From Candidatus Naiadarchaeum limnaeum (GTDB lineage Archaea; Undinarchaeota; Undinarchaeia; Undinarchaeales; Naiadarchaeaceae), in the NCBI GenBank assembly GCA_014189685.1, contig DVAB01000002.1, positions 1-14,615 on the forward strand: a stretch of 14,615 nucleotides of DNA, written 5' to 3'. Shown here in pieces: positions 186 through 564 of the stretch. Each line of letters opens with the position of its first letter. The first letter of the stretch is position 1. The notes under the pieces were generated by a model, which saw only the letters and a program-made list of their open reading frames with translations, did not search any database and had not been told where the DNA came from. Position numbers and translations under genes: made by a program.

Positions 186-248
186 GAAGTGCTGATTAGT
201 ATTAGATTACGGGGCCATGGTGTAACCCGGGAGCATTGCTGGCTCCAG

Positions 249-463
249 ACAGCCGCCGACATGAACGTTTTTGCAACTTAGAATCGGCTGGCGCTTCGGA
301 CTACATTAGGGACACATAAAGGAACAAAGTTCCTTTATGCACGCGAAACCTTTGGTTTCGCGTTGTGCTCGCCAAGAATTTGTGCGCTCGCAGTCCCAAA
401 ATAGGCCTAGCGTCATAAGTTTGGAGCGCTGATATTTCGATATGATGAAAGCGCTCGGAAGAA
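249..463 (+). ncRNA. tRNA-Trp intron with embedded box C/D guide RNA
   Basis: A box D motif CTGA lies at 429-432 and a perfect box C motif ATGATGA at 442-448, linked by a short hairpin (432-435 with 440-443) capped with a TTCG loop. The bases 5' of box D (420-427) are complementary to tRNA nucleotides 31-38 (242-249) over 8 pairs, one of them G-U. The fifth base upstream of box D, G424, pairs with C245, which is tRNA C34. By the N+5 rule this predicts 2'-O-methylation of C34, the modification known to be guided by the tRNA-Trp intron in Haloferax and Pyrococcus. I could not identify a clear second C'/D' pair; CCGA at 256-259 with ATGAACG at 261-267 is a weak candidate if the excised intron is circular. 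The guide segment can also pair with 450-456, an alternative fold. Confidence 0.75.
315..363. repeat. Hairpin doublet inside the tRNA-Trp intron
   Basis: The first hairpin pairs 315-325 with 329-339 (11 bp, perfect, loop AAA). The second pairs 341-350 with 354-363 (10 bp, perfect, loop TTT). They are separated by one base. They lie in the middle of the intron, away from the splice sites and the box D guide, so they account for much of its unusual length. Their shape matches the doublets at both ends of the window. Confidence 0.8.
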
Positions 464-500
464 ACCAGCAGGTTAGGGTTCAAATCCCTGTGGCCCCACC

Positions 501-564
501 ATTTAATTTGGGCTTGAAAGGTGCAGGGACAAAATGCAAGGGAATTGATATACCCAAATTAAAT
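501..564. repeat. 12-bp inverted repeat filling the tRNA-Trp/leuS gap
   Basis: Bases 501-512 (ATTTAATTTGGG) are the exact reverse complement of 553-564, with 40 nt between them. The left arm begins at the last base of the encoded tRNA CCA end, and the right arm runs into the first possible leuS ATG at 563. Inside, 513-516 can pair with 537-540. It could be a leader structure on leuS mRNA, a processing signal behind the tRNA, or a 64-bp element with terminal inverted repeats. Confidence 0.75.
545..553 (+). promoter_or_regulatory. Weak candidate TATA box for leuS
   Basis: TTGATATAC is centred about 29 nt upstream of the second in-frame ATG of leuS (578), the distance expected for a leaderless archaeal transcript. 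The match to a TATA box is weak and it lies next to the right arm of the inverted repeat. Transcription from the tRNA promoter is an alternative. Confidence 0.25.

Follow-up and report, generated by a model that had tools for sequence, protein, structure and literature searches.

A putative circularly permuted box C/D guide for C34 in the tRNA-Trp intron of Candidatus Naiadarchaeum limnaeum

RESULTS AND DISCUSSION

A tRNA-Trp gene with a long intron

The DNA analyzed here (the window) comprises the first 14,615 nucleotides of contig DVAB01000002.1. Its source is an archaeal genome (G000) of 983,883 bases in 52 contigs that is 98% complete. When introns are allowed, ARAGORN identifies a tRNA-Trp(CCA) gene at 211-501 (Table 1), the only tRNA-Trp gene detected in this genome. 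Its intron measures 215 nt and lies at the canonical 37/38 site. The gene is called neither by ARAGORN at default settings nor by Rfam, which returns nothing relevant at gathering or relaxed thresholds. It was also not returned by a genomic search with tRNA-Trp model R1, probably because of the 215-nt intron; a local search with the model did return 211-501. The other matches to R1 in this genome that were checked are tRNAs for Pro, Arg, Lys, and Ile, and none is a tRNA-Trp. The strand GGAAGAA of the splice-site helix carries one A more than the canonical GGAG-AA, and the BHB motif is partial and not fully canonical.

Table 1. Features of the tRNA-Trp gene and its intron (window coordinates)
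Feature	Position	Strand	Remarks
tRNA-Trp exon 1	211..248	+	positions 1-37; anticodon CCA at 245-247
Target of the guide	242..249	+	C245 = C34
Intron, 215 nt	249..463	+	between positions 37 and 38; splice site set by anticodon-stem pairing
Dispersed repeat element, ~161 nt	250..410	+	between exon 1 and guide; copies elsewhere in G000
Two nested palindromes, CATAAAGGAAC/GTTCCTTTATG and ACGCGAAACC/GGTTTCGCGT	315..363	+	genome-wide palindrome family
Guide (antisense) element	419..427	+	G424 faces C34 at N+5
Box D, CTGA	429..432	+	direct reading and covariance model
Hairpin/loop linking box D to box C, TAT-TTCG-ATA	433..441	+	weak stem here; covaries in relatives
Box C, ATGATGA	442..448	+	perfect RUGAUGA; direct reading and covariance model
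GCGCTC, complement of guide/box D bases 424-429	451..456	+	competing local hairpin
3' strand of splice-site (BHB-like) helix, GGAAGAA	457..463	+	direct reading against other introns
tRNA-Trp exon 2	464..501	+	position 38 to the encoded CCA

A candidate guide in register with C34

An initial annotation of this DNA proposed a box C/D guide within the intron, directed at C34 of the very tRNA that the intron interrupts. Re-reading of the letters reproduces the elements of this proposal. CTGA is present at 429-432, and 420-427 pairs with 242-249 over eight positions that include one G-U pair (T420-A249, T421·G248, T422-A247, G423-C246, G424-C245, A425-T244, G426-C243, and C427-G242). The base opposite C245 (C34) is G424, the fifth upstream of box D, which is the N+5 register. 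A ninth pair, G419-C250, is available in the pre-tRNA. After splicing, G419 may switch from C250 to C39, which would leave the length of the pairing unchanged; the predicted energies are -16.4 kcal/mol before and -15.9 kcal/mol after splicing.

The annotation had judged a chance origin unlikely, and this holds: when the intron was dinucleotide-shuffled 20,000 times, only 8 of the shuffled sequences offered an uninterrupted run of eight or more pairs that includes C34 and sets it at N+5 of a CTGA, a figure that leaves the box C of the intron out of account. This perfect box C, 9 nt past box D, had escaped the initial annotation. A box C/D covariance model, which the annotation had suggested as a check, was built from 23 guide-D-hairpin-C modules with the window left out. 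It gives a single significant match in the whole window, at 421-448 (27.5 bits, E 7.1e-6), and the next best match scores 8.5 bits. The stem between boxes D and C is itself weak in the window, which suggests that its D/C motif may form a K-loop rather than a K-turn.

A second feature absent from the initial annotation is the complementarity between bases 424-429 and 451-456. The resulting local hairpin has a predicted energy of -15.0 kcal/mol, nearly equal to that of target pairing, and could sequester the guide. A similar but shorter self-pairing (GAGC/GCTC) is seen in archaeon UBA543 (G002).

Conservation among archaeal tRNA-Trp introns

An intron-tolerant tRNA-Trp covariance model was used to search 297 archaeal genomes, and the introns were parsed. 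Conservation was counted over 53 distinct tRNA-Trp introns with a length of 40 nt or more, a set that leaves out family f10, whose members ARAGORN had misassigned to Arg or Gly. The guide core TGGAG is found in 50 of the 53 introns, where 7.3 are expected after shuffling. A CTGA-like box (three or four of four letters matching) follows TGGAG at exactly +2 nt at 41 of 52 testable sites, against a background of 8%, and each other offset from -2 to +11 accounts for 0 to 6 sites. The CTGA and the complementarity, on whose conservation the annotation had staked its claim, are thus both retained in relatives. These include G002, a member of the same order, whose intron reads CTGGAGCG-TTGA-hairpin-ATGATAG.

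Covariation of the guide with tRNA positions 31-38, also put forward earlier, is borne out in part. At position 31 the guide follows the tRNA: A31 faces T in all five cases, and G31 faces C in 28, T in 3, and A in 5. The anticodon bases are invariant and mostly permit no covariation signal. When the whole intron was compared with relatives by BLAST, matches were confined to the tRNA exons and none fell in the intron.

Complementarity to the anticodon might instead assist folding or splicing of the pre-tRNA by keeping the anticodon region in place for the BHB, with no role in methylation. Introns of archaeal pre-tRNAs do pair with positions 32-35 near the 3' splice site, through the GGAG at their ends, and an antisense with no box D after it occurs in family f10 and in type III introns. 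However, the guide is a copy separate from the splice-site GGAG, it is held at a fixed distance of 2 nt from box D, and the 14-nt Trp intron of L019 has the splice-site part only. Boxes C and D and the covarying hairpin between them would moreover be superfluous for such a role, which we regard as quite unlikely to account for the element.

A permuted order of guide elements

Two main arrangements were found. Fifteen introns have the classic order C-g39-D'-C'-g34-D, with a box C-like sequence that precedes TGGAG by exactly 5 nt. In another 23, among them that of the window, box C lies 6-27 nt downstream of box D, an order that we call permuted, or type II. The intron in the window reads g34-D-loop-C, with no box C upstream of the guide.

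Among type II introns, 15 of the 21 that have enough room contain, shortly past box C, a core that can pair with tRNA positions 38-41 (3.0 expected). This core tracks changes in the tRNA (ATCC/GGAT, ACCC/GGGT, ACCG/CGGT or TGGT, and ACCT/AGGT), and no clear box D' accompanies it at the classic spacing. Given the g34-D-C order and the 38-41 core past box C, the arrangement g34-D-C-g39 is, as read from the letters, the classic order circularly permuted. The hairpin that links boxes D and C covaries: 93.4% of cells are paired, compared with 40-49% in slid controls, and 32 cells show double changes, compared with 10.3 in shuffles. An imperfect CTGA-like word (CTGA, CTGT, or CTGC) often directly follows the GGT of the position-39 antisense in type II introns (for example L089, L017, L121, and L127); N+5 from this word would point to position 42, not 39.

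The named carriers of type II introns in the collection scanned are Altiarchaeales, Aenigmatarchaeota, Nanoarchaeota, Woesearchaeota, one record labeled Euryarchaeota, and archaeon UBA543. Most of the relatives are metagenome assemblies. On a LeuRS tree of 23 genomes the topology labels are clustered (6 changes, compared with 10.3 when shuffled). We claim no single origin of type II, because the permuted type does not form one clade on this tree and LeuRS may have been transferred.

In a third arrangement, seen in families f17 and f32, the g34 has no box D and is preceded by a CTGA/box C pair. Six introns (L084, L085, L087, L088, L095, and L110) have a CTGA/box C after the position-39 guide and a position-34 antisense without box D, which makes them a complementary half-guide type. 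Family f10 (L057, L059, L064, L066, L070, L073, L076, and L083) has D-hairpin-C followed by an anticodon antisense, TCTGGA. This antisense has no box D, and therefore the N+5 rule cannot apply to it; the sequence upstream of the f10 box D has no evident target in tRNA-Trp.

A probable single target

The initial annotation had suggested a single-target version, and we find neither room for a second guide after box C nor a trace of one. Box C is separated from the splice-site helix by only 7 usable nucleotides, too few for a second antisense, and the window therefore lacks one directed at the position-39 region with a box D'. The shortest relatives, with introns of 38-46 nt (L128, L120, L065, and L115), are also without a second guide. 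One argument of the annotation proved wrong, namely that C39 in place of U speaks against a second guide: a perfectly placed second guide is present in introns of the classic order that have C39 (L097).

Alternatively, the 215 nt might hide the outer C and D boxes of a classic two-target guide at other places, and most classic introns do have both guides. Yet the window lacks the box C-like sequence that all 15 classic introns have 5 nt before TGGAG. The 7 nt past box C offer no space, and the added length on the 5' side belongs to a repeat element present at other loci. We consider this reading highly improbable.

A repeat element within the intron

The element at 250-410 is in part ~90% identical to two other places in the genome. 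One (C25:4314-4429) lies directly 3' of a tRNA-Ser gene, and the other (C44:14864-14928) lies beside tRNA-Thr. At the latter, the element is immediately preceded by 16 nt copied from the 5' end of tRNA-Thr (TGCCTCCGTAGCTCAG), and the intact tRNA-Thr comes after the element. A more distant copy begins at C17:52099. Thus three of the four copies of this structured element of ~160 nt are in or beside tRNA genes.

Within the same order, the introns of G002 and G004 measure 56-61 nt, and G003 and G005 have none. The simplest reading of these sequences is that the repeat entered the intron downstream of exon 1 and ahead of the guide, which it left intact. On this reading the intron is long because of the insertion, and its extra length is unrelated to guiding.

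Two further repeats were noted. The palindrome GCGAAACC-NNN-GGTTTCGC (341-363 in the window) occurs exactly, with a variable loop, at 10 places, in the window and on contigs C1, C6, C17, C28, C43, C45, C50, and C51, often with a second GGAAC/GTTCC palindrome. With up to two mismatches it occurs at 14 places, and a reversed-pattern control gives 0. Another structured repeat, at 502-563, is an inverted repeat around GGCTTGAAAGGTGCAG...TGCAAGGGAA that recurs at C21:9806 and C28:1778. Each of the three copies found immediately follows a tRNA gene (Trp, Lys, and one more), and the repeat is possibly a tRNA-linked small RNA.

The guide itself is not universal in this order. In one genus, G003 and G005 (L005/L006) have lost the intron and carry A at position 37, and the box D of a third species, G004 (L003), has degenerated to CGGA. 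Because of these two losses and this degenerate box, the guide is evidently dispensable in the order, as far as these genomes speak to it. Together with the recent insertion and the missing second guide, these losses could signal a decaying, nonfunctional guide in the window, in which the surviving motifs are relics and both the insertion and the loss of the second guide reflect relaxation. Such decay is unlikely, since boxes D and C in the window are perfect matches to the consensus, better than those in G002 or G004, and the guide forms 8-9 pairs without a mismatch.

Machinery and proposed mechanism

The genome encodes fibrillarin and Nop5 in adjacent genes (C36) and L7Ae-family proteins on C13 and C21. 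Parts, register, and conservation agree with the original proposal of a guide directed at C34 of its own tRNA, and methylation of this base is predicted. We favor the interpretation, at a probability of roughly 0.83, that 249-463 encodes a circularly permuted, single-K-turn box C/D guide for 2'-O-methylation of C34 in its own tRNA. Points that count against it are the weak D-C stem, the competing hairpin, the loss or degeneration of the guide in relatives, the ~161 nt of inserted sequence that part the target from the guide, and the incompletely canonical splice-site helix.

In the mechanism that we propose, L7Ae would bind the D/C K-turn or K-loop and Nop5-fibrillarin would be recruited. The guide would pair with tRNA bases 31-38, or 31-39 after splicing, and C34, facing the fifth base upstream of box D, would be methylated. 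Three modes of action are conceivable: in cis within the pre-tRNA, in trans, or as part of the circle formed by the excised intron. Circularization would place the guide after box C and before box D, the arrangement of ordinary guides. Circular tRNA-Trp introns are present in all archaea that were reanalyzed (PMC12558985) and are abundant in Thermococcus kodakarensis (PMC9014305). Because tRNA-Trp introns circularize in other archaea, the permuted order would be mechanistically neutral once the intron is excised. For Naiadarchaeum, we infer assembly, methylation, and circularization.

A broader proposal is that several archaeal lineages (Altiarchaeales, Aenigmatarchaeota, Nanoarchaeota, Woesearchaeota, and the UBA543 order) possess a permuted, often single-K-turn tRNA-Trp guide, that the excised circle is its working form, and that half-size guides of 38-46 nt suffice for Cm34. 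We see the odds of this as about even.

Comparison with known systems

The intron resembles the euryarchaeal tRNA-Trp intron guide known from Haloferax volcanii and as Pyrococcus sR50 (Clouet d'Orval 2001; Singh 2004; as summarized in PMC4090602 and PMC7994747) in its 37/38 site, box C/D consensus, anticodon-loop antisense, and C34 at N+5. As that guide is described there, with the order C-g39-D'-C'-g34-D and two K-turns, the window differs in having g34-D-C, one K-turn, one target, and an inserted repeat. H. volcanii is known to tolerate the absence of its tRNA-Trp intron.

Nanoarchaeum equitans, a DPANN archaeon, also has a C/D RNA in a tRNA intron, although that of tRNA-Met. Its sRNA24 is a permuted C/D RNA that was detected as a circle, but this is a free-standing gene and not a tRNA-Trp intron (PMC3491384). 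The minimal single-domain C/D snoRNA (Deryusheva and Gall 2019, as cited in PMC7994747) likewise has one C, one D, and one antisense. According to the same summary it is eukaryotic and linear, with C-guide-D and a terminal stem, whereas the window has guide-D-loop-C. In the literature searched, which covered the key primary papers incompletely, we found neither a permuted tRNA-Trp intron guide nor one from DPANN archaea described.

Implications

Archaeal C/D methylation is usually thought to require paired C/D and C'/D' architecture. If the interpretation given here is correct, self-modifying tRNA-Trp introns are far from confined to the classic euryarchaeal order and also exist as two circularly permuted versions. 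This opens two questions to experiment: is the circular intron the form that works, and are one K-turn and one antisense enough for archaeal C/D methylation? In addition, a single order offers a natural series, with an intact guide, a degenerate box D, a lost intron, and an intron enlarged by a repeat, for comparisons that may reveal the purpose of the mark.
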